Assembly: GCA_006384855.1 (NCBI GenBank)
Contig: VCJN01000783.1
Coordinates: forward strand, 54,070 to 118,069
DNA length: 64,000 nt
Reading direction: 5' to 3'
From: Tetraselmis striata
Lineage: Eukaryota > Chlorophyta > Chlorodendrophyceae > Chlorodendrales > Chlorodendraceae
Under the pieces are notes generated by a model. The model was given only the letters and a program-made list of their open reading frames with translations, was not told the DNA's origin and searched no databases. Of the stretch, positions 5,937-60,969 are shown piece by piece (position 1 is the stretch's first letter; each line of letters starts with the position of its first letter). Made by a program: the position numbers and the translations under genes.

Positions 5937-7119
5937 ATGGACCCGGGGCTGCTTTTGGGCAGCCCCCAAGGCGGTGGCACCGGCAGCAACGGCGGCGGTG
6001 CAAGTAGCGGCAGCGGCGAGGCCTGGGCGACACACCTGGTGAAGGCGATCTACAGCGAGCGCGGCCGCGCGGCAACGGGCGCGGAAACTATGGTGAGTAA
6101 TGGAGCGTCTCCACGCGGGTACCGATGCCAGCCGTTTATGCGCCGGTTGGCGTGCGTGTGTTCACCCTTTACACGGCATACGGCCATAAAGCACGAGCAT
6201 AGCCGGAAGCATGCAAGCCGTGTATATACATGGGTTTTAATAGGCTACACAGTCGCTATAGCAGCAAAGGTAGCCTCTGTTTACCCGTATCTGTATTCGA
6301 GTCTGTCGATGTTTACATCCGTCCAGAAAGATTTCGCACATAGACATCATGCTCCCTATATGCCACTGTGCGCAGCACACTGTCCTCAGGAATGGGCAGT
6401 TGCAGTAGTATGGTGGCGTATTTTAATGGGCTGTTGGAAAGAGTTGCTCTTAAGCCTTCAGCAGCACCCCATCTCACCCCTCGCGCAACCCAACCCTGCC
6501 ACCACCTTAGGTCTGCAACCGCTGCAGCCACCTGCCCGAGAAGGATCGGGGGACCAAGTGGGCCGTCCCGCTCAACGGCTTCACCAAGGCCAAGGCCCAC
6601 CTAGCGCTCTTCTGCACCGGCCTGCAGCCGGACTCCAACGAGCAGGATGCACAGCTGCGGCAGACGCTGCTGTTAACCTTGAGCGACAGCCAACTCACCA
6701 CAAAGAAGGCCAAGAAGCACCGTGCGTCCTTGCGCGCTCGCATGCGCCGTCCCTCCCCTTGCTGTTCCTTGTGTGTGGGCTGGCAGACCTCGCTGCCGAT
6801 CGGGTATTATGCTGGACCTGGCGGTTCGGTCATGTAACGAGCTGTGGCTTGATATGCAGGGGAGGCGGCTCTGAAAAGGGTACCCGAGCCGGAAGGCACG
6901 CCCCAGCAGCCATCCAGTCAGAAGTTGCTGCTGCTAGACATAGCGCAGCTGGGGCTAGGCCAGGACGAGGAGATGGAGCTGGCGCGGCTGGCGATGCTGG
7001 GGGATACGAACCTGGTGGCCATACATTCCGCGTTTGGCTCCGGGGCTGACCCGCTGCGCTTCAAGCAGTACACCCTTAAGCTGCTGGCAGTCAGCAGAGA
7101 AGCAACTCCAGAGACGTAG
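5937..7119 (+). CDS. BED-type zinc-finger-like protein, three exons
   Basis: Exons 5937-6092, 6511-6721 and 6860-7119 join in frame (156+211+260 nt, 208 residues) with GTGAGT and GTGCGT donors and TTAG and GCAG acceptors. Residues 54-87 read C-x2-C-x24-H-x4-C (VCNRC ... KAKAHLALFC), the spacing of a BED or hAT-type DNA-binding zinc finger. It is followed by a basic stretch (TTKKAKKHREAALKR). BED fingers bind DNA and are common in domesticated hAT transposases; a nuclear role is inferred. The N-terminus is Gly/Ser-rich. The last about 55 residues (LLLLDIAQLGLGQDEEMELA ... FKQYTLKLLA) are homologous to the C-terminus of the gene at 2-454. No transposase catalytic domain is present. An uninterrupted frame of 370 codons over this locus reads through the introns and is not the protein. 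Confidence 0.7.
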
Positions 7120-44879: not shown

Positions 44880-45562
44880 GACTATCGGACTGTCAACAGC
44901 GGGACAAGTAGTTAAGTCATAAGCGGGGTAGATAAGTTCGGTCTACAACGGGACAAAGTGACTCTCCTAATCGGCGAGACAAAATAGTTCAGTCTACAGT
45001 GGGGCGGAATAATTTTGAGGGCGAGAAAGTAGTTCGGTCTTAAGGGGGTACATGATGCGTCTGACATCAACGGATAAAAAATCGGTCCAACATGACGAAA
45101 TGATTATATCATTAGCGGGACAAAAGATGTTCGCTTGAGATGGACTAAAAGAATTAGTATATCGGTAGTTGGATGAGATAGTTATGTTTTATGTGGGACA
45201 AATCGTTGTGTCATATCAGCGAGACGAAATAGTTCGGTAATCGGCGTGACGAAATAGTTATTCTATCAGCGGGACATAATGGTTCGGTCTACAACGAGAA
45301 GAACTCGATTTATCATCAGCGGGACGAAATTGTTCTATCACCAACGGGACAAAAAATGATGTCATCATCATTGGGACGAAATAGTTATATAATCAGCGAG
45401 ACGAAATAGGTATGTCACCAGCGCGACGAAATCGTGATGTCATCAGTGGGACGAAATCATGATGTCATCGGTGGGACGGAATAGTTCAGTCACCAACGGG
45501 ACGAAATCGTTTTGTCATCAGCGGGACGAAATAGATATGTCATTAGCGGGGCGAGAAATTTG
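44880..45562 (+). repeat. 25-bp minisatellite, about 27 degenerate units
   Basis: Units follow the consensus GTCATCAGCGGGACGAAATA plus about five variable bases. Five consecutive units between about 45410 and 45540 keep an exact 25-nt period; older units to the left are more diverged. It is AT-rich outside the GCGGGACGA core. Confidence 0.75.
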
Positions 45563-46809: not shown

Positions 46810-47140
46810 GTATGATTTGTCCCAGCTTAGACGGAATTTTAGCCCCCGGCCGCACAAACTACTTGTAACCATTACGTTCACCTTGCCCTGATGTTTTGTC
46901 CCAGCTTGGACGGAGTTTCAGCCCCCGACGGCACAAACTACTTGTAGTCATCATCTTCCCTTCGTCACCCTTGTGTTGCGTCCCTGCCAATTGAATAGCG
47001 GGATTTGTTTCCCGTCTTGAAACAAATGCACCAATACCTATCAACCCCACTGCTGACCCTAAGCCCTAATTAAGACCAAGCCATTATGCACCGCGTGCAT
47101 CGGTGCAAAATATATTGCTTAGGTTATTGTTTCCGCCATC
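46810..47140 (+). repeat. Dispersed repeat, copy 2 (related to 25370-25660), with internal duplication
   Basis: A segment beginning TTTGTCCCAGCTT-GACGGA and ending ACAAACTACTTGTA occurs twice in tandem (about 46817 and 46894). It is followed by CCTAAGCCCTAATTAAGACC and GTGCATCGGTGCAAAATATA, as in the copy at 25.4-25.66 kb. Confidence 0.6.
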
Positions 47141-47647: not shown

Positions 47648-47826
47648 ATTACGTCAGGGCTTTCACAAATGCGAACTACGAACAGAGCCAACAGCAACTA
47701 TGAAAGGTAGCCAGCAAAAGAGAGACAATTTTAAAATATAGCACCAGCATTAGCGATATATAGGGGGATGCACTGGCTGTTAGTTCTTTTTGTAGTGCGC
47801 ATTTGTGAAAGCGCCCAGATGTAATG
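47648..47826. mobile_element. MITE-like element with about 30-bp terminal inverted repeats
   Basis: The left end TTACGTCAGGGCTTTCACAA (then ATGCGAACTAC) and the reverse complement of the right end, TTACATCTGGGCGCTTTCAC (then AAATGCGCACTAC), match with few changes. The internal part, about 115 bp, is AT-rich with no ORF. The Ty1/copia element is inserted at its right border. A related right end occurs at about 60309-60356. Confidence 0.55.
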
Positions 47827-48308
47827 TGTCGGAGGGGATTGTCGAAGTGATGGCTGAGTGGCACTGTCACTGATGGGGGGAGAGTCGGCGAGAGTCGGCG
47901 TGCACGCGTCGAATCAAGTCGAGTGCCAGTAAGCAAGGTGCGAGCTGGAAAGGCAAAGGGCTGCTATGAGCCGTGAGCGATGGACGATAGGTAGTCGCTG
48001 TCGCCGTGGTGATGGCTGAGTGGCACTGTCACGAGAGAGAAAGGGTGAGTCGGAATATTTCTGGAAAAGTAGTTGACTGAATTACAAGGAGCCGAGGCTG
48101 GCAATTTATACCAGCCGGCTAGGTGTCAATTAGGACGGACACCTCTCCGTCTAAGAAGGCCAACTGGCAAAGATGCCTAGGTGCCATGCTTTGGTGCCGT
48201 ACTGCTGCCATAAGGTCCAAATTAGGCACAGGTACGGCAGCCAGAAAAATGCGGATTTCACAGAGAGAAAAAGCGGATTCAGGGTACCGGGGTACCCTGG
48301 GTCCAACA
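47827..48308 (-). repeat. 3' LTR of the Ty1/copia element (482 bp)
   Basis: Near-identical to 54671-55167 apart from the missing 15-bp CGCCGTCACC-type unit near 47990. A GGTATAAATTG box lies at about 48103-48113 (minus). Confidence 0.95.
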
Positions 48309-48315
48309 CCCCTCC

Positions 48316-49527
48316 TCATCCTGTGGAATCCCGCGGGCGCAAGACTGATGGCGGCAGAGGCGCAACACGGGGCTCCTCGGATGACCCCATCAGGAAAGCG
48401 CGGAAACGAAGAAAGGTAGTCAGCGGCAGCGCCTTAGTGAAGAAATCGGCGAGCTGGTCTGCGGTAGGCGTGTAGTGCATGTCGATGACGCCATCTTGGC
48501 AGAGTTGGGCTGCATACTGAAACTTGAGGTCAATGTGGCGTTGCGCGCTTGTAATCATACCATGTTTCACCTGAACGATGCACGCTTGATTGTCCTCGCA
48601 TACCCGCACTGGGTCAGTGGTGGGGTGGTGGAGCTGGCGCAGAAGAACGCGAATAAACGCCAGACATTTGCATGCCATGCAGAGCGCCACGAACTCCGCC
48701 TCGGCAGTAGACATGGCCACGCTCTTCTGAACTTGCGCGCGGTAGGCGACTGGGGTGCCATGCACCAGGGCAAGATAGCCGGTAGTGGAGCGGCGTTTGG
48801 GCACGAAGGTTGCCCAGTCAGCGTCCACAAAAAAGAGGAAGTCAGGTGCCTCGTTGTCCAGTTGCTTCCGGAAAATGAGGCCATGGTTGGGGGTGCCCTT
48901 GAGGTAGCGCAGCACTGATACGGCGATCTGCCAGTGACGCTCGGTGGGGGACGCCATGTAGGCGCACAGGCGGCCGACCACGAACGCAATGTCCGGGCGT
49001 GATGCCACAGCCAGCCAGATAAGGCTACCAACAAGATTGGGATAGGGAAAGAGTTTGGTGTCGAGGGGCGTGCCTGTAGGGTCATGAAAATCGGTATCCG
49101 GTGTGCAGGGTAGGCGGCGAGGCGCGCATGCCGCCATGTTGAAGGTAGTCAAGATGTCGTTGATGTACTTCTCCTGATGGAGGTGGAGCACGCCTCCCGG
49201 CTTGCGATCAATGGCCATGCCAAGAAGCCAGGTGCATAGGCCGTCAGTAGTTGCATCAAACGTAGAGAAGAGAGAAGTCTGAAAACGCTCCCGGATGTCG
49301 GACGACGGGGAGGCAGCCAGCATGATGTCATCGACGTAGACGCATAGGATGGCCAGCAGCGATTTATCGACTGCGAGCAGCGTCCATACGCCTGGATCGC
49401 ACTCGGAGCTGACGAAGCCGAAGTCACGGAGAAAAGGAGAAAAGCGCAGAAACCATGCCTTGGGTGCCTGCGGCAGGCCATAGAGTGCCTTAACGAGTTT
49501 CCAAGCCTGATCCTTGCGGCCGTAGCC
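48316..49527 (-). CDS. pol: Pol, 3' part: reverse transcriptase C-terminal half and RNase H (frame-shifted from 49490-53497)
   Basis: After the G17 tract the minus-strand frame continues GYGRKDQAWKLVKALYGLPQ, the conserved copia RT region, then YVDDIMLA (49338-49315), the catalytic box. It ends with a full RNase H of copia type: FVDADWA, then STTGYL, AMSTAEAEFVAL, CEDNQACIVQ, RHIDLKF and ADFFTKAL. The TGA stop (48318-48316) is only 7 nt from the 3' LTR. Copia elements encode this in one frame with integrase. Here the frame is offset by one base at the homopolymer, so the region needs one C fewer (or two more) on the coding strand to be continuous. This could be a sequencing-length error, a real mutation or a slippage site. 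Confidence 0.88.
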   Translation of the reverse strand, partial: GYGRKDQAWKLVKALYGLPQAPKAWFLRFSPFLRDFGFVSSECDPGVWTLLAVDKSLLAILCVYVDDIMLAASPSSDIRERFQTSLFSTFDATTDGLCTWLLGMAIDRKPGGVLHLHQEKYINDILTTFNMAACAPRRLPCTPDTDFHDPTGTPLDTKLFPYPNLVGSLIWLAVASRPDIAFVVGRLCAYMASPTERHWQIAVSVLRYLKGTPNHGLIFRKQLDNEAPDFLFFVDADWATFVPKRRSTTGYLALVHGTPVAYRAQVQKSVAMSTAEAEFVALCMACKCLAFIRVLLRQLHHPTTDPVRVCEDNQACIVQVKHGMITSAQRHIDLKFQYAAQLCQDGVIDMHYTPTADQLADFFTKALPLTTFLRFRAFLMGSSEEPRVAPLPPSVLRPRDSTG

Positions 49528-52500
49528 GGGGGGGGGGGGGGGGGAAGACGTAGACATCTTCATCGAGGTTAGCGTTGAGGAAAGCACAGGTGACGTCGAA
49601 CTGGTACATCTCCCAGTCAAGTTGAACTGCGAGAGCAATAGTGGTGCGCAAGGCGATGAAGCTGACGACTGGGGCATAGGTCTTAGTGTCATCATAGTTC
49701 TCGCCGGCAGTAAGTTGATCGCCGCGGACAACCACTCTGGCCTTGCGCTTGATGAGGTTGCCATCCTTGTCTTGTTTCTCCGCAAAGGCCCACGCCGTCT
49801 GTATGATGATTGTTGATGGGTTGTCACGGCGAAGGTCAGGAATGCTGATCCAAACAAAAGTCTCCATCTTGGTGATAGAGGCGATCTCTCGGTCCATGGA
49901 CTGTTTCCAGTCATCGGGGTGATTGCTGGAGATGGCCTCCTTGTAGTTGCGCGGCGCCTTGGACACGCGGACAGTGGGTGCTGGCAGGGCGAGGGCGGCC
50001 ATCTGCGCCGGGTAGGAGCGCACAACCTCCGCGATGGCGGATGCTACCAGCTTGGGGTGGTAGTCGCTAAGGTCGACATAAGGAGAAGATATGTGCGCTG
50101 ATCCACTGGAGTGAGGAGTTGGCAGTGCTGTGGCGTCCCCCTCCTGATGACGCGGAAGATACGTCCCTTCTGGCTGCGGAGGTGGGGCCCCCTCCTGCGC
50201 GGAGGCAAGCGCCGCTGACGGCGGCATGGGTGGCGGCATGGGAGGTGGCGCGTGGGGCCCCTCCTGCTGGTCCAAGGGTTGCGGCTCATCCATCATGTGG
50301 TCATCGTCGGGGAGCTGGAAGACTGGCATAGAGAGTGCCGGTGTGCTGGAGAAGGGTTGTGTCACCTCATCAAAGATGACATCGCGTGTAACCGTTTCGC
50401 GCCTGGTAGCCGGGTTGTATATGCGGTAGCCGGCGGAGTCCTCATGGTGGCCAACGTAGATGCCCGGCCAGGATTTAGGTGTCATTTTTCCCTTGGCTGC
50501 CCGCATAGTCACATGTATGTTGACCCAGGCCACACAGCCGAAAACATGCAGGTTGGCGAGGTCGGGCTTGCGACCGGTCATCAGCGTGTAAGGTATGGCG
50601 TTGACGGACGAGCTCCACTGGCGGTTGCAGAGATAGACGGCGTGAAGATACGCCCAGTCCCAGAAGGTGCGGTCGAGGCCGGCGTGGAGAAGCATGGCTT
50701 GGGCACACTCACCGATAGTGCGGAAAGAGCGCTCCGCCAGGCCTGCCTGATGATGAGAGTGGGATGCGGTAAACTCCAGCGCGATGTTGAGGTCTGCACA
50801 TGCTTGACGAAACGGAGAGCCGGTATAAACCGCGCTGCGATCGGCACGTATGCGTTGAACGGTGTGACCCATGCCGAGAACCGCCGCATGAAGTTGATGG
50901 ACGGCGCGGACGGCCTCGTCCTTGGTGCGCATGGTGATCGCTACCTTTACTCCAGTGTAGGAATCCACCGCGCCGAAAACATGCTGCGCGCCAGTGACCG
51001 ACGGACAAGGTCCCTTCCAGTCGTCGATGACCACGAGCATGTATGGTGCCTCCGCGCGTGGGGAGGGCTGACGGTTGACTGACTGCTGGTGGGATTTGGC
51101 CTGAATGCACGCCGGGCATATGGCCTCCGGGGCAGATCCGAGTTTCGGGATGCCGATGGCATGTTGTTGGGTGAGCTCCATGTGGCGCGCGCAGCGATGA
51201 CCAAGTCGAAGATGCCACAGGGAGTAGGAGGCCGTTGGAGATGGCAGTGCCATGACCCCATGAGACGGATCGCGGATGGGAAGGAGCTTGATGCCGTACA
51301 TGCCTGTGGTGCCGGGGTAGGGCTGAAGGTGGATGACTGCACCATCTGGGGTGATCATGCTGTTGAGGAGGCGGCTGAAGTAGAAAGAGTAGCCCTGCTT
51401 GCTGAGTTGATGGGTGCTGAGGAGGCGGCTGATGTTGGTGAGACCGACACTGGAGGTGATGTCAGGAGTATGGTAACAGTCTCGTGCCACAATGGTATGT
51501 GGCCTGCCTGTGATGTCTAGTGTTGGCGCCAGCGTGGTGCCGATGCCGACTGCCGGTTGCCCGAAACCGCCCACCAGGAATTGCTCCGCCGCAGGAATGT
51601 CCATGTAGTAGATGTAGTCGGTGCGGTGGGCATTGACGTGAGAGGATGCTCCCGAGTCGATGAGTACCCATGCTTCGCCATCGCTGGTGATGAGGGTGCC
51701 GTATGACGTGTGGCAGACAGTGATGACGGCTGGGGAAGGGGCGGCGCCCGAGACAGCCTTGATGTAGTTGCGCATGACGTTGAGATCGATGACCCCGCCG
51801 AGAAGTTTGCGCAGTGTCGCCTCAGAAAGGTGAGATGTGGGCAGATCATCCAAGGTGAAGCCCCTGGCGCGAGCGCGTAGAGCTGCAGGGGGCTCGCACC
51901 ATCTGCCGTTGTCTGCCCATGACCAGGGGCCATCATGTTCGTAGACCATGCCGGTGCCCGGCTGACCGTTGGTGTGCATGCGAAAAGCGTATGAGCCGGG
52001 GCGGGCGACGAACTTCGGAAAGTAGTCAGTTGTCACCACTGGAGTAAAGTGGGGGAATTCGGATATACAGAGGTCCCACGCGCAGGGGCCGGGGTCGGTG
52101 AGCTCGATGGCGTTGATGTTGTTGATGTCGTCCTGAACGTCGGTTTGCGAAGCGATATTGGTCCACAGGAGGGTGTCGCGGTGAGCCGCCGAGCCGCAGG
52201 CGGTCGCACGCATGATGTTGCCGGTGCCAAGTGAGGAGAGTATCTCAGGGAAGTCCAGCGCGCCTGGAACATTCTCCACAATGTAGCGCACCGGTGTGGG
52301 CTGTGTAGTCAGGTAGAAACGGATGAAACTGATGACGGAAGCAAAGGCCCGAGAGCGATGGTCCTGCCAGCCAAGGCGTGAGCCAGCGCGCGACCATGGT
52401 TGACACGGTGGGCCTGACACGATGAGGGTGACCGGACGCAGGGTCTCCAGCTCCGCGATAGTGATGTTGTTGACGTCCATGGGGGTCCTGGCATGACAGT

Positions 52501-53497
52501 CCTGAAATGCTGAAGGGGGCAGACGGTCCGGGTACTTGTTGCTGATGACATGTAGGCGATGCATCCACATAGTACGAGCCTCGGGCGACGGGTCGGCGCC
52601 GGTGATCTTGTGGATGGTGAAGCCGTATTCTACCAGAGCCTCTACTTCAGATGCCGATGGGCCATGGCATGGCGAAAAGAGATGGTCGATGACCAGAGAG
52701 GTTGGCAGCGGGAGGATTGGCGCAGCGGTGAGGAGCGGTAGTGTTGGTGGCGGGTCGCCACGCATGGCGCCTTGCTCCGTATGAAGAATGTGGGATGCCA
52801 ACGCCGCCGAGGCGGGGAATGTGGGTGAAGTGAGGCATAGGGGTTGGGCTGGGGTGGGGACGGGGTGGGGACGTTGCCAGTTGATGTCGAATAGGTGGAT
52901 GGGGGGATCGAGGGAGTAGGGATGGGAGTAAACGTTCCAGCGGGGGGGGGTGTCGGGGGCATCGAAGATTGGGAAGGCGTCGGGGTGAGGGCGGGAGCGG
53001 TGAACATGCCATGAGTGTGAGAACGGGGACTCGAAGTCGGCATAAGAGTCGGAGTAGGGGACGTGCCATGGGTCATGTAAGTCATCCTCCGCGCTGTCCT
53101 CGCCCTCCCCCTCCTGTGCTCCGGTGTCCGCCCCTCTTGGGGCGGTAGTGTTGCAGGTGAGCATGATAGGCAGGCTGCTGTGGTGTTGTGCTGATGGGGA
53201 CACTCCCACGAACGGGTAGGCCTCCTGGTGTCCCGTCGGCCGCTGGGTGAAGGTGTCGCTGGCCTGCTGATGACCCGGGTGCTGATGTCCAGCCGGGGAG
53301 ACGAAGCCGACCGGCTGCTGACGACGCTGCATGCCGTCGTTGCCGCCCTGGTTTGTCCAATGCTGCTGCCGCTGGGGCCTGTCCTGATTGTTGCGGTTGT
53401 CGTTGTAGAAAGGCTGGCCTGGCGGCGCCCGATGGCGGTAGTTGTCGCGCGGGTGGTGGCCATAGTTGGTGTTGACGCGACGCTCCGCAGGCGCGCG
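49490..53497 (-). CDS. pol: Pol, 5' part: DNA methyltransferase - protease - integrase - RT N-terminus
   Basis: This minus-strand frame follows directly after the gag TAG; numbering here starts at the first Met (53332, 1280 residues). Residues about 213-530 form a C5-MTase: a motif I-like segment (LFSPCHGPSASEVEALVEYG), motif IV with the catalytic Cys310 (VSGPPCQPWSRAG, 52414-52382), motif VI ENVP (353-356), motif VIII-like HRDTLLWTN (384-392) and a motif X-like end (LRKLLGGVIDLNVMRNYI). Next come a retropepsin box DSGASSHV (559-566), an HHCC zinc region (LWHLRLGH ... CPACIQAKSH, 705-747), and an integrase core with D770/D771, D831 (IRADRSAVYTG) and E867 (HHQAGLAERSFR). The RT start is NYKEAISSNHPDDWKQSMDR. 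The MTase looks DNMT3-like in its order of motifs. A Pro-rich linker precedes RT. All catalytic residues seem intact. Confidence 0.92.
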   Translation of the reverse strand, partial: RAPAERRVNTNYGHHPRDNYRHRAPPGQPFYNDNRNNQDRPQRQQHWTNQGGNDGMQRRQQPVGFVSPAGHQHPGHQQASDTFTQRPTGHQEAYPFVGVSPSAQHHSSLPIMLTCNTTAPRGADTGAQEGEGEDSAEDDLHDPWHVPYSDSYADFESPFSHSWHVHRSRPHPDAFPIFDAPDTPPRWNVYSHPYSLDPPIHLFDINWQRPHPVPTPAQPLCLTSPTFPASAALASHILHTEQGAMRGDPPPTLPLLTAAPILPLPTSLVIDHLFSPCHGPSASEVEALVEYGFTIHKITGADPSPEARTMWMHRLHVISNKYPDRLPPSAFQDCHARTPMDVNNITIAELETLRPVTLIVSGPPCQPWSRAGSRLGWQDHRSRAFASVISFIRFYLTTQPTPVRYIVENVPGALDFPEILSSLGTGNIMRATACGSAAHRDTLLWTNIASQTDVQDDINNINAIELTDPGPCAWDLCISEFPHFTPVVTTDYFPKFVARPGSYAFRMHTNGQPGTGMVYEHDGPWSWADNGRWCEPPAALRARARGFTLDDLPTSHLSEATLRKLLGGVIDLNVMRNYIKAVSGAAPSPAVITVCHTSYGTLITSDGEAWVLIDSGASSHVNAHRTDYIYYMDIPAAEQFLVGGFGQPAVGIGTTLAPTLDITGRPHTIVARDCYHTPDITSSVGLTNISRLLSTHQLSKQGYSFYFSRLLNSMITPDGAVIHLQPYPGTTGMYGIKLLPIRDPSHGVMALPSPTASYSLWHLRLGHRCARHMELTQQHAIGIPKLGSAPEAICPACIQAKSHQQSVNRQPSPRAEAPYMLVVIDDWKGPCPSVTGAQHVFGAVDSYTGVKVAITMRTKDEAVRAVHQLHAAVLGMGHTVQRIRADRSAVYTGSPFRQACADLNIALEFTASHSHHQAGLAERSFRTIGECAQAMLLHAGLDRTFWDWAYLHAVYLCNRQWSSSVNAIPYTLMTGRKPDLANLHVFGCVAWVNIHVTMRAAKGKMTPKSWPGIYVGHHEDSAGYRIYNPATRRETVTRDVIFDEVTQPFSSTPALSMPVFQLPDDDHMMDEPQPLDQQEGPHAPPPMPPPMPPSAALASAQEGAPPPQPEGTYLPRHQEGDATALPTPHSSGSAHISSPYVDLSDYHPKLVASAIAEVVRSYPAQMAALALPAPTVRVSKAPRNYKEAISSNHPDDWKQSMDREIASITKMETFVWISIPDLRRDNPSTIIIQTAWAFAEKQDKDGNLIKRKARVVVRGDQLTAGENYDDTKTYAPVVSFIALRTTIALAVQLDWEMYQFDVTCAFLNANLDEDVYVFPPPPPRLRPQGSGLETR
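49528..49544. repeat. G17 homopolymer inside pol, site of the frame change
   Basis: On the coding strand this is a run of C encoding Pro codons after DEDVYVF. The upstream frame runs on for only about 18 codons past it to a stop at 49490, while the conserved RT continues in another frame. Confidence 0.9.
51743..52696 (-). other. Cytosine-5 DNA methyltransferase domain inside Pol
   Basis: About 318 residues in frame with gag-pol and with no stop. C5-MTases methylate cytosine using S-adenosylmethionine; the PCQ cysteine attacks C6 and the Glu of ENV protonates N3. Both are present (Cys310; Glu353). The sequence between motif VIII and X (about 393-505) is Trp-, His- and Pro-rich (EHDGPWSWADNGRWCEPPAA) and is the likely target-recognition region. 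No PWWP, ADD, BAH or chromodomain is visible. The position between gag and protease is unusual for copia. Confidence 0.85.
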
Positions 53498-54481
53498 CTA
53501 ATGGCGGTCATAGCGAGGGTTGGTCATGGTGCTGGTCGGCGCGGTGTCATCCAGGATACGCAGGCCATTGGCATGGCGCCTGGCCACACACTGCTGCTGG
53601 GTATGGCCCGGACGGTCACACCGTCTGCAGACAACGCTGGGCCCGGTGGTGTGCTGCGGGTCCCTGGGGCTGTAGGAATTGATGAGGTTTGGCGGGCACG
53701 CGCGGACGCGCTGCTGACGCTGACGCTTGCGCGCCTCCATGTTCTGTCCGGCGCTGATGATGGTCGCCAGCTTCTCGTTGACAGTGGCCGCCGAGGTGGT
53801 GGTGTCGACGATATGATCGTAGTCTGGGTGAAGGCCTGGGATGAGGTAGTTGGCAGCCACGTACTCGAAGGTCCACTGGCCATGTGCCTTGTTCAGCAGA
53901 TTCCAGAGGTTCTGGTAGCGACGAACATACACCTGAACCGGCTCATTCGGGAGCTGGCCCGCTGTGATCTCCTCCTCCAAGCGCTTACGCTCCTCCATGG
54001 CTGAGCCCTGGAGCTCAGTAAGAAGAGCCTTCCATGCGGTGTATCCACACTTCCTGGAATCCATGCTGATGCTGTTGACGATGGCCAGTGCCATGGGATA
54101 ATGGGCTGTTGCGTGGCGTAGGGCGGCCAGAAGGATCATTTGCTCATGACGGGTGCCTTTGCCCTTGGTGGTGTCCAAGTAGCCAGCGCTGCCGAGAGCG
54201 ATCTTGATGGCTTGAGCGTTGTCTCGTGTAGAGATGGCGTTGTCCCAGACGGGGACGTTCTTGAGGTCGAGTGTCGGCTTCACCGCAGCTGGCTTGATAT
54301 GCTGGACGACCTCGGAGTCATCGTCTGACGCCCCGTCCATGCTGAAGGCGTCGTCAGAACTGGTATCATCACGGAAGTCAGGAGGTGGTGGGGCGTGGCC
54401 AGGGTCGGTCTTGATCGCACTCTGCCGAGCCAGATTGGCCAGGAGGGTGTTCATCATGCCGGTGTTGATGCTGGTAGACAT
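53498..54481 (-). CDS. gag: Gag with CCHC zinc knuckle, ending at an in-frame TAG before pol
   Basis: It starts at ATG 54481 (MSTSINTGMMNTLLANLARQ), 190 nt inside the 5' LTR, and has 327 residues. The middle is the helical copia gag core (AIVNSISMDSRKCGYTAWKA ... EPVQVYVRRYQNLWNLLNKA). A nucleic-acid-binding zinc knuckle follows near the end (CRRCDRPGHTQQQC, spacing C-x2-C-x4-H-x4-C). Gag forms the particle that houses reverse transcription. The stop TAG (53500-53498) is followed in the same frame by an open stretch leading into pol, with no frame change. The frame is open upstream of ATG 54481 to about 54631, but that part is non-gag-like. Confidence 0.88.
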   Translation of the reverse strand: MSTSINTGMMNTLLANLARQSAIKTDPGHAPPPPDFRDDTSSDDAFSMDGASDDDSEVVQHIKPAAVKPTLDLKNVPVWDNAISTRDNAQAIKIALGSAGYLDTTKGKGTRHEQMILLAALRHATAHYPMALAIVNSISMDSRKCGYTAWKALLTELQGSAMEERKRLEEEITAGQLPNEPVQVYVRRYQNLWNLLNKAHGQWTFEYVAANYLIPGLHPDYDHIVDTTTSAATVNEKLATIISAGQNMEARKRQRQQRVRACPPNLINSYSPRDPQHTTGPSVVCRRCDRPGHTQQQCVARRHANGLRILDDTAPTSTMTNPRYDRH

Positions 54482-54670
54482 TGCGAAGGGATGGCGCACT
54501 TGTGCTTGAGGATGTATAACTGTAGGGGTGGGCGGGTGGGAAGAAAACTCGTCGCACGGCGCCGTCGACCGTCGAAAGTTGTCGAGGGTCGAGATACACG
54601 CAGGTTGAAGCCTCTGGCAGGCGTCGAGCACGGGGCAAGACGTCGAACCAAAGGAGAGGGCCCAAAAACC

Positions 54671-55167
54671 TGTCGGAGGGGATTGTCGAAGTGATGGCTG
54701 AGTGGCACTGTCACTGATGGGGGGAGAGTCGGCGAGAGTCGGCGTGCACGCGTCGAATCAAGTCGAGTGCCAGCAAGCAAGGTGCGAGCTGGAAAGGCAA
54801 AGGGCTGCTATGAGCCGTGAGCGATGGACGATAGGTAGTCACCGTCGCCGTCACCACTGTCGCCGTGGTGATGGCTGAGTGGCACTGTCACGAGAGAGAA
54901 AGGGTGAGTCGGAATATTTCTGGAAAAGTAGTTGACTGAATTACAAGGAGCCGAGGCTGGCAATTTATACCAGCCGGCTAGGTGTCAATTAGGACGGACA
55001 CCTCTCCGTCTAAGAAGGCCAACTGGCAAAGATGCCTAGGTGCCATGCTTTGGTGCCGTACTGCTGCCATAAGGTCCAAATTAGGCACAGGTACGGCAGC
55101 CAGAAAAATGCGGATTTCACAGAGAGAAAAAGCGGATTCAGGGTACCGGGGTACCCTGGGTCCAACA
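54671..55167 (-). repeat. 5' LTR of the Ty1/copia element (497 bp), promoter
   Basis: A TATAAATTG box on the minus strand lies at about 54961-54969 and should set the transcript start inside the LTR. The phrase GGCTGAGTGGCACTGTCAC occurs twice within the LTR. Confidence 0.93.
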
Positions 55168-55172
55168 TAATG

Positions 55173-59111: not shown

Positions 59112-59864
59112 TTAGTTGCCGGGCACAAACTTGGTGGCCATGGCGAAGCCGTTGGCGCCGCTGGGGTCCGCCAGGTGAGCGTCCAGGTTCTCGATGGGGC
59201 CCTTGCCGGTCACGATCGCCTGCACGAAGAAGCCGAACATGGAGAACATCGCCAGCCGACCATTCTTGATCTCCTTCACCTTCAGCTCCGCGAAGGTGTC
59301 GGGGTCGTCAGCCAGGCCCAGGGGGTCGAACGACTCGCCGGGGTACAGCGGGTCCAGGCCCTCGCCGGCAGGCCCGCCGTTCACGCGGTATCCCTCAATA
59401 AGGCCCATCAGCAGCACCTGCGTGAACACGATGGCCAGGATGGACTGCGCATGGATCAGGCTGGAGTTGCCCAGGTAGTCAAGGCCGCCCTCGGAGAAGA
59501 TCTGCGCGCCGGCCTTGAACCACACCGCCTCGCCGAAGTTGGTGCCGTTCTTAGCCAGCAGCTCGGGGGTGACGCAGCCCAGAGCGCCCAGCATAGCCCA
59601 GCGGGCGTGGATCAGCTCCAGCTCGCGGTAGCGGCGGAAGGTCTCGGGGTCGGACGACAGCCCGGCGGTGTCCCAGCCGTAGTCGCCGGGGAACTCGCCG
59701 GTCAGGTAGGAGGGGGTGCTGCCGGAGTAGGGGCCCAGCCACTTGGCGCGGTCGGGGCCGTAGAACTCGACAGCAGCGCGGGTGACCTGCTTGCGGCCGC
59801 GGGTGGCGACCGAGGTCTGGCCAGCCACAGTGGCGGCGAAGGAGCGGGCAGCGATGGCAGCCAT
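59112..59864 (-). CDS. LHCBM: Major light-harvesting chlorophyll a/b protein (LHCII, LhcbM-like)
   Basis: Intronless, 250 residues, full family length. It binds chlorophylls a and b and xanthophylls in thylakoid LHCII trimers of photosystem II. Residues 1 to about 31 are a chloroplast transit peptide ([20 protein letters not shown]). Next is FYGPDR (34-39), the trimerisation motif with Phe for the usual Trp. Helix B carries [16 protein letters not shown] (81-96) with the Glu-Arg chlorophyll ligands. The amphipathic stretch [20 protein letters not shown] precedes helix C ([16 protein letters not shown]). Helix A is [20 protein letters not shown] (194-213). The C-terminus [18 protein letters not shown] is typical. 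A second, damaged copy lies 3.4 kb away on the same strand. The long plus-strand ORF over this gene is a shadow. Confidence 0.97.
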
Positions 59865-59948
59865 GGTGATGAAAGGGAAGGTTGCAGAGGATGGAACGGG
59901 ATAACGGGGGGTAGATGAGTGATGGTGGGGAGGACGGTTGCCTCGAAG

Positions 59949-59956
59949 CTTATATG
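59949..59956 (-). promoter_or_regulatory. TATA-like box of the LHC gene
   Basis: The minus strand reads GCATATAAGC about 85-90 bp before the ATG at 59864, a plausible core promoter for a highly expressed gene. Confidence 0.5.
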
Positions 59957-60969
59957 CATCAGACGAGGCCTGTTCATAGTCGCTATCTCGTGAGGCGCGC
60001 CACCGGCCCGCGCACGCAGTAGCGCGTGCCCAGCAGGCCAGAAGAAATATAGGATATTTGCAAGTTTGCGGATGTTTCGGATATTTTCGACGCTAGCCGC
60101 CGAGTGACACGTGAGGATCCTGCCACGCTGGCACCAGGAAGGCAAAGATTGCATGCAGATTCGGGAGAGATCGAACCAATGGCGCCTATCTGGAGCACAC
60201 ATGGGACACAGTCACGCCCAGTTTTTCCGACGCATTCGCGTACCTGAATGTCGTGGTCAGTAGGGCGCAATGACTACGATTATGAAACGATTAATTAACG
60301 ATGTAATTGTTAGTTCTGTTTATTGTGCGCATTTGTTAAAGCCCTGATGTAATAATGATTAATTAACGATGCACTTTAGCGACAATGACCAATAACTATG
60401 AGGGAACGAACCGTCGTCGATGAAACGACGATGCTGGACACATACGCAAGTTGAAACTGTGATGGTTTACTAAGGATTTATATTGGCGGTTTTCCAGAAA
60501 TAAAATTCGCGACGCCTCATCAGCACTTGGATTGCGAGCGCACCACGTTCGCCGTCTCAGACACACAGCAGCATATAGACGTCCAAGACGGCTGATCACA
60601 CACGGCCGCGGGCCCAGACGGGGAGGGAGCGTAACACGGAACAAGTACACGCACCTGTTTGGCGCTGGTTGTATGTGTGAGCAGCTGCCGGTTTGCTGTG
60701 GATTCCAAGGGTGTCCCACCCAGGCCGCACCGTCTGTCCGTCGGTCGTTTCACCTCTTGTCGTCTTTTGGGGATTAGAACACAAATTGTGAGCTCTGTAC
60801 ATTCCTACTATCACCCGCACGGGAAATCTCAGGGGCGTGGCAGGGAGAAAATACCTGCAAGTAGGGCTATGCGGCGCTCAAACCCTGCTGGGCTTTTTTG
60901 AAGATAACACATGAAGAGGAGCGCATTCTCACTAAGAAAAATAACCCTCGTAGAAATACCAAGCACGGC
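59957..60969. other. Upstream flank of the LHC gene, no supported ORF
   Basis: GATTAATTAACGATG occurs at about 60288 and again at about 60357, flanking 54 bp that match the right end of the MITE at 47648-47826. This may be a target duplication around a MITE remnant. The rest has no gene support. Confidence 0.4.

Follow-up and report, generated by a model that had tools for sequence, protein, structure and literature searches.

A Ty1/copia retrotransposon of the green alga Tetraselmis striata carries, in frame between its Gag and protease, a cytosine-5 DNA methyltransferase domain (C5-MTase, here MTase) that is related to MTases of other retroelements. The element spans positions 47827-55167 on the minus strand of the 64,000-nucleotide stretch of DNA that was analyzed (the window). 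We put at roughly 55% the probability that its Gag-Pol polyprotein uses this selectively maintained, DNMT3-like domain as predicted here, to methylate the element's new DNA before or during integration. The sequence comparisons documented below show the domain itself, its placement, its presence in nearly all copies judged, the constraint on it and its relationship to other retroelement MTases. Cytosine methylation is usually directed at transposons, and a copia element that conserves an MTase in many young copies makes the parasite's motive testable in a culturable alga.

A copia polyprotein with a constrained methyltransferase domain

The element is bounded by near-identical long terminal repeats (LTRs), comprising a 5' LTR of 497 bp (54671-55167) and a 3' LTR of 482 bp (47827-48308). 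Their alignment has a mismatch at 1 of 482 positions and one 15-bp indel, by which the 5' LTR is longer, and a 5-bp target duplication that can be read in the sequence, TAATG, flanks both ends (47822-47826 and 55168-55172). All internal features are on the minus strand, in the order Gag, MTase, protease, GAG-pre-integrase, integrase, reverse transcriptase (RT) and RNase H. Gag with its CCHC knuckle (53501-54481; weak Pfam matches, every one below cut-off) is followed by an in-frame TAG at the Gag/Pol junction (53498-53500), a junction across which the frame stays open in sister copies, L036 and L037 among them, and then by an open frame of 1335 codons (49490-53497). Pfam matches to this frame exceed their cut-offs for DNA_methylase (PF00145, 37.5 bits against 22), gag_pre-integrase, SH3_retrovirus and RVT_2. 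The MTase domain (51743-52696, 318 amino acids) precedes the retropepsin region (51284-51697), which was recognized by its DSGASSH motif, has a weak Pol_BBD match below cut-off and starts the protease-integrase block (PR-INT). The GAG-pre-integrase with its HHCC residues (PF13976, 51092-51283), the integrase core (50756-51049; rve slightly below cut-off, 29.5 against 32.6 bits) with SH3_retrovirus next to it (79 bits), the RT (RVT_2, 49105-49807) and a C-terminal part that includes RNase H (48316-49104, by motif reading and without a separate Pfam match) complete the element. The integrase precedes the RT and is accompanied by GAG-pre-integrase, SH3 and RVT_2, as in copia-type elements, with rve itself just below its cut-off.

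The LTRs, the TAATG duplication and the Pfam domains bear out the initial annotation of a Ty1/copia element with a C5-MTase inside its polyprotein. That annotation also described a domain without stops in a young element, which holds for the MTase stretch of the frame and for the near-identical LTRs. The window copy as a whole is, however, broken twice: the TAG follows Gag, and the RT contains a frameshift at a homopolymer near 49533-49546. This long run (C on the coding strand) is also about where the long frames of L032 and L040 stop, which suggests slippage or an assembly error, and the frameshift in the window copy may be an artifact of assembly.

Searched alone, the span 51743-52696 gives a C5-MTase match to PF00145 with an E value of 3.3e-10 (40.4 bits, cut-off 22). 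The match covers only profile positions 45-116 of 324, and because this stretch is short, more sensitive profile and fold comparisons were made. Human DNMT3A/3B rank first by both profile search and predicted fold (pLDDT 88), at 17-20% identity, and by these measures the predicted domain is closest to DNMT3 among solved structures. Its best match is the catalytic domain of DNMT3A/3B, but the window element lacks the companion domains of the human enzymes and has its own motifs I and VIII. Motifs IV (GPPCQ), VI (ENV), VIII-like (AHRDTLLWTN) and X-like (LLGGVIDLN) are present in the order first proposed; motif I, placed at their head in that proposal, is present in degenerate form.

The 224-Mb T. 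striata assembly that contains the window holds at least 128 matches to the MTase domain in a protein search. Residues 1-3 to 318 are covered in 34 of these matches, 21 of them stop-free, and another 39 cover only about residues 1-206, at 59-72% identity. Copies with and without the domain were counted at the junction with PR-INT, using the 48 of 105 PR-INT matches that start within the first five query residues and comparing them by eye with the MTase matches. An MTase match ends within about 265 bases upstream of PR-INT in 46 of these 48 judgeable matches, the two without an adjoining MTase being C707:27070-28449 and C2782:4570-5685. In a protein search, 21 of 23 matches bear the database label jgi/Tetstr1, which supports the chlorophyte host that had been suggested.

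Twenty copies of about 8 kb were chosen among the best MTase matches and combined with the window copy. Two LTRs are found in 15 of these 21 copies, with a perfect 5-bp duplication in 14 of the 15. LTR mismatches number at most five in 14 of the 15 (17 in L047) and zero in four, and uninterrupted single frames, of 2130 and 2162 codons, occur in two copies. Three of the 15 two-LTR copies (L033, L034 and L038) are about 310-350 bp shorter than the other young ones (6995-6997 against 7308-7341 bp). L033 is shortened yet has identical LTRs, and such a deleted form may be mobilized in trans.

The ratio of nonsynonymous to synonymous rates (dN/dS) was calculated for 17 of the 21 copies, leaving out L039, L046, L049 and L050, each with a missing piece. 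Over 31 divergent pairs it is 0.27 for the MTase, 0.27 for the RT, 0.28 for gag, 0.32 for the linker and 0.14 for PR-INT. Variants within the MTase were counted in the 30 best-scoring matches, a choice by score that under-represents decayed copies; the ratio is 0.28 for shared variants and 0.66 for singletons. Among the 22 copies without a stop in the mapped codons, it is 0.12 for shared variants (14 nonsynonymous to 37 synonymous, compared with 720:234 sites in the 30-copy set; p = 7e-13) and 0.54 for singletons. All 30 copies retain the catalytic Cys98 and Glu141, as well as Val143, Asp35, Gly12, Gly300 and Asp304; Gln99, Asn142 and Phe7 are kept in 29, and Arg173 and Asp74 in 28. Judged by these comparisons, the MTase is under purifying selection with a constraint like that of the RT, and the initial claims that the domain has its catalytic residues and has been kept by selection both stand.

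Relatives and origin of the domain

A search with the MTase region of P0019 found 24 proteins, P0019 included, and their precomputed domains comprise a gypsy-type RVT_1 in 19 of the 24 and a PHD finger in 19 of the 24. One of them (P0040) is labelled Closterium sp. NIES-54. The MTases of the Ty3/gypsy polyproteins with a PHD finger (P0019, P0024-P0029 and others) are homologous to that of the window and 33-36% identical to it, including the target-recognition part, but the polyproteins differ in their PHD finger and gypsy domain order. This order is RT, RNase H, MTase, PHD, H2C2 and integrase in P0019, P0024 and P0028, and the PHD finger follows the integrase in P0023. A copia polyprotein from an ENA contig (P0030) shares with the window element the order Gag-CCHC, MTase, protease, GAG-pre-integrase and integrase, but its MTase is 33% identical, has PPCT as motif IV and matches PF00145 below cut-off.

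Further families were found by a PF00145 search of the genome and by reading the long frames. A second copia family (L055-L057) has frames of up to 2299 codons and an MTase 29% identical to the window's, with Pfam matches to the MTase, Pol_BBD and GAG-pre-integrase in L055 and L057. In a third (L060), the MTase is followed by what reads as a DTGATSH protease, and at least seven matches lie in frames of 2147 codons. Another frame, of 3505 codons (L058 and L059 together), encodes an RVT_1 RT, PCIF1_WW, a C5-MTase and RNase H, and by reading is an element of the long interspersed nuclear element (LINE) type; its MTase is 34% identical to the window's, and the MTase occurs at four or more loci. 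This frame (L058 1-2701, L059 1-2501; G000:C2687:16650-21850) combines two kinds of methyltransferase-related domain, since we take PCIF1_WW to be the family of an mRNA adenine methyltransferase. A family D, known from matches alone (G000 C193, C1860 and others), has MTases of 34-36% identity in frames of 2164 and 2152 codons. Six standalone C5-MTase frames, nearly equal to one another and 325 codons long, also occur in the genome and score strongly against PF00145 (G000:C1993, C776, C1647, C2337, C355 and C1455).

We built a tree of 39 MTase rows, in which DNMT3A is a single row of joined stretches on a long branch, four rows are of bacterial type and algal host DNMTs are absent. The retroelement MTases fall on one side, and DNMT3A with the four bacterial-type rows on the other (support 99/98). 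A clade of seven copia rows, as many gypsy rows and the single LINE row (100/99) stands apart from 17 other gypsy and two Gag-protease rows. The gypsy label, given to 24 rows, rests for P0047 on a reading of its RNase H tail and includes P0049, which has no element domain of its own. A single clade of all gypsy MTase rows was rejected (p = 5e-5; p = 9e-10 before L060 was added), as was one clade of the gypsy and Gag-protease rows (p = 0.002). Monophyly of the copia MTases is neither shown nor rejected (approximately unbiased test, p = 0.38; support 80/40).

A search for standalone relatives scored 7998 candidates, of which the best 120 of the 248 passing were considered. Beyond pieces labelled Tetstr1, the strong ones are P0047 and P0063, whose tails read as gypsy-type RNase H, together with P0049 and P0065, which have no element domain of their own; the next best of the 120 is bacterial-looking, with an E value of 4e-14. 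A donor gene was not found among these best 120 of 248, in a search that scored only candidates sharing exact words. No protein named K. nitens is among the relatives listed in the protein searches. A viral origin was also considered: IMG/VR contigs contributed one weak locus, and among viral structure models most entries either are unnamed or bear the name of an ordinary cytosine methyltransferase.

The sequences compared give no support to the independent capture of a host gene that was first suggested, although a host donor keeps some probability, since the tree holds no algal host DNMT. The closest relatives that were found belong to Ty3/gypsy, LINE and other copia elements, a pattern better explained by transfer from one retroelement to another or by a single old source common to them. 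From these sequence relationships we infer that the domain reached the lineage from another retroelement or a shared source rather than through a private capture of a Tetraselmis gene. We tentatively give close to an even chance to a broader proposal, in which one DNMT3-like MTase lineage would be a mobile module of green-algal retrotransposons that has passed between Ty3/gypsy, Ty1/copia and LINE elements in chlorophytes and streptophytes alike and is selected for marking its carrier's own DNA. If so, published "independent captures" in such hosts would in part be parasite-to-parasite exchanges and not thefts from the host. A module common to three retroelement classes bears on host origin versus circulation among parasites.

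Proposed self-methylation and its alternatives

Because the MTase lies upstream of the protease in one uninterrupted frame, each Gag-Pol molecule would carry one MTase into the particle. There, complementary DNA (cDNA) would be made by reverse transcription and the MTase would be released by the protease. Methylation of the cDNA would disguise the new copy as host DNA; alternatively, the marks may shield it from nucleases or editing, or silence it until the next round.

Several observations weigh against such self-methylation. Motif I is degenerate (HLFSPCHGP; relatives carry ELCGG-LG or similar) and Thr replaces the second Arg of motif VIII, leaving binding of S-adenosylmethionine and activity uncertain, although within motif I the conserved Phe7 (29/30) and Gly12 (30/30) lie where the structure model shows a strand, a loop and a helix. 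A footprint of CpG depletion or C-to-T change was sought in the window element and in 15 young copies and was not seen: CpG observed/expected is 0.90 in the element and 0.94 in the rest of the window, and singleton transitions in the coding pieces of the 15 copies are no more frequent at CG (15/740) than at other C sites (56/2078; p = 0.41), with 21/605 at CHG and 35/1473 at CHH. The dN/dS of the divergent pairs depends on just two old lineages (L047 and L048) compared with the young group. GAG-pre-integrase matches also lie in intact frames of 1561, 1627 and 1703 codons (16, 7 and 6 of the 150 scored) that, compared by eye, have no nearby MTase among the matches listed, so that this host seems to support thriving copia families that lack the MTase. 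Truncated derivatives whose MTase remnant is altered have multiplied as well; together with the intact frames lacking a listed MTase, they indicate that mobility does not require the domain in cis. In yeast, the domains of KnitGypsy and SymbioLINE showed no activity, a result that its authors deem inconclusive in the available text (PMC5890265).

We consider it unlikely, though worth serious weighing, that the domain has lost its activity and is retained because it serves the Gag-Pol particle structurally or by binding, either as a partner like DNMT3L or as a nucleic-acid binder. The altered motifs I and VIII and the missing CpG footprint would fit such a role, and so would the derivatives. 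Three of the 39 short matches were read as DNA (L052-L054); their remnant stops after motif VIII, with Leu for the motif IV Cys and QNC for ENV, so that neither catalytic residue is retained. Motif VI can be seen in 34 Tetstr1 proteins, with Glu in 21 of them and Gln in 13. The alignment ends at residue 204 in 11 of the Gln proteins, at 219 in one and at 318 in P0017, and two of the 21 Glu proteins also end early (P0010 at 208, P0064 at 211); truncation and Gln thus overlap imperfectly. Where motif IV is visible in the Gln proteins (11), seven still have Cys and four have Leu, and the change of Glu seemingly came first. P0012 and P0016 keep Gag and join the remnant straight to sequence that lies beyond the integrase in the full element, and 10 of the 39 short genomic matches sit in open frames of 1203-1237 codons. 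From their sequences, we infer that the truncated derivatives are non-autonomous elements moved in trans.

Constraint on the remnant can be read both ways. Against the autonomous L031 and L037, the dN/dS of L052-L054 is 0.27-0.35 for gag and 0.52-0.58 for the remnant, which evolves faster than the gag of the same derivatives and so counts against a structural role. Against L047 the two are alike (0.52-0.64 for gag and 0.52-0.59 for the remnant), so that relaxed constraint on the remnant is suggested and not clear-cut. Also against a structural role, the full-length domain has both catalytic residues in all 30 best copies and a low ratio of shared variants in the stop-free ones. Derivatives with an altered catalytic Glu offer a natural experiment on the need for activity in cis.

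Improbable, in our view, is an MTase whose marks fall not on the cDNA but on host DNA in or near the insertion sites, steering integration or the silencing of neighboring genes. The MTase shares a polyprotein with the integrase, and most gypsy relatives have a PHD finger (the 19 of 24 noted above). In the four copia families read, however, the MTase is Gag-proximal and separated from the integrase by the protease, and no chromatin reader was detected in the window element by Pfam. The same Gag-proximal placement would bring the enzyme near the packaged RNA, and RNA methylation has been raised for SymbioLINE (de Mendoza 2018, PMC5890265, in the part available); methylation of the element's RNA to 5-methylcytosine in the particle nevertheless merits little credence, since profile and fold both place it nearest to enzymes of solved structure that act on DNA (DNMT3), and not to the tRNA enzyme DNMT2. 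A functionless passenger of recent capture, which the stop and frameshift elsewhere in the window copy might suggest, is highly improbable given the purifying selection, the near-constant presence of the MTase and its same placement in at least three diverged copia families of the genome.

Known elements and other features of the window

Elements with DNMTs are already known from publications that were available in part. Symbiodinium LINE and DIRS elements and a gypsy element of Klebsormidium nitens carry them, the DIRS ones are CG-active in yeast, and Symbiodinium Copia elements are described in the same text as lacking a DNMT domain (PMC5890265). KnitGypsy-Dnmt3, from the charophyte K. nitens, resembles the window element in being an LTR element with a DNMT3-type domain in Pol under purifying selection, but by its published description, the sole basis of this comparison, it is Ty3/gypsy and not Ty1/copia. 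SymbioDIRS-Dnmt3 and SymbioLINE-Dnmt are likewise retroelement-borne C5-MTases, the DIRS ones of DNMT3 type, but belong to tyrosine-recombinase DIRS elements or to a LINE with the DNMT in ORF1 (PMC5890265). Methylase-encoding retrotransposons, with adenine or cytosine methylases, occur in green algae among other groups; those described are gypsy and DIRS only, and copia is not mentioned in the available text (PMC6338049). One sentence in PMC12344493 places DNMT3 in "LTR Copia and DIRS", citing PMC5890265, and the same paper names a ChloroDNMT class. DNMT5a and DNMT6 are reported from Tetraselmis species (PMC9998398), and an RNA-demethylase domain is reported from orchid gypsy elements (PMC9289625). 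The available part of PMC12695648 has nothing on retroelement DNMTs of this kind, and the literature searched, which lacked most subscription papers, yielded no description of a DNMT in a copia element of Tetraselmis or any other chlorophyte. DNMT-bearing LINE, DIRS and gypsy elements are thus published, as are green-algal gypsy and DIRS elements with methylases, whereas the copia setting and one DNMT3-like module common to three retroelement classes look new against the literature searched.

Elsewhere in the window, a tandem array of about 14 copies of a 25-bp unit lies at 45195-45554, and a pair of 68-bp direct repeats, 84% alike and 79 bp apart from start to start, at 46812-46958. An open frame on the minus strand at 59112-60092 encodes a chlorophyll a/b-binding domain (PF00504, E 9e-53), which fits an algal host.

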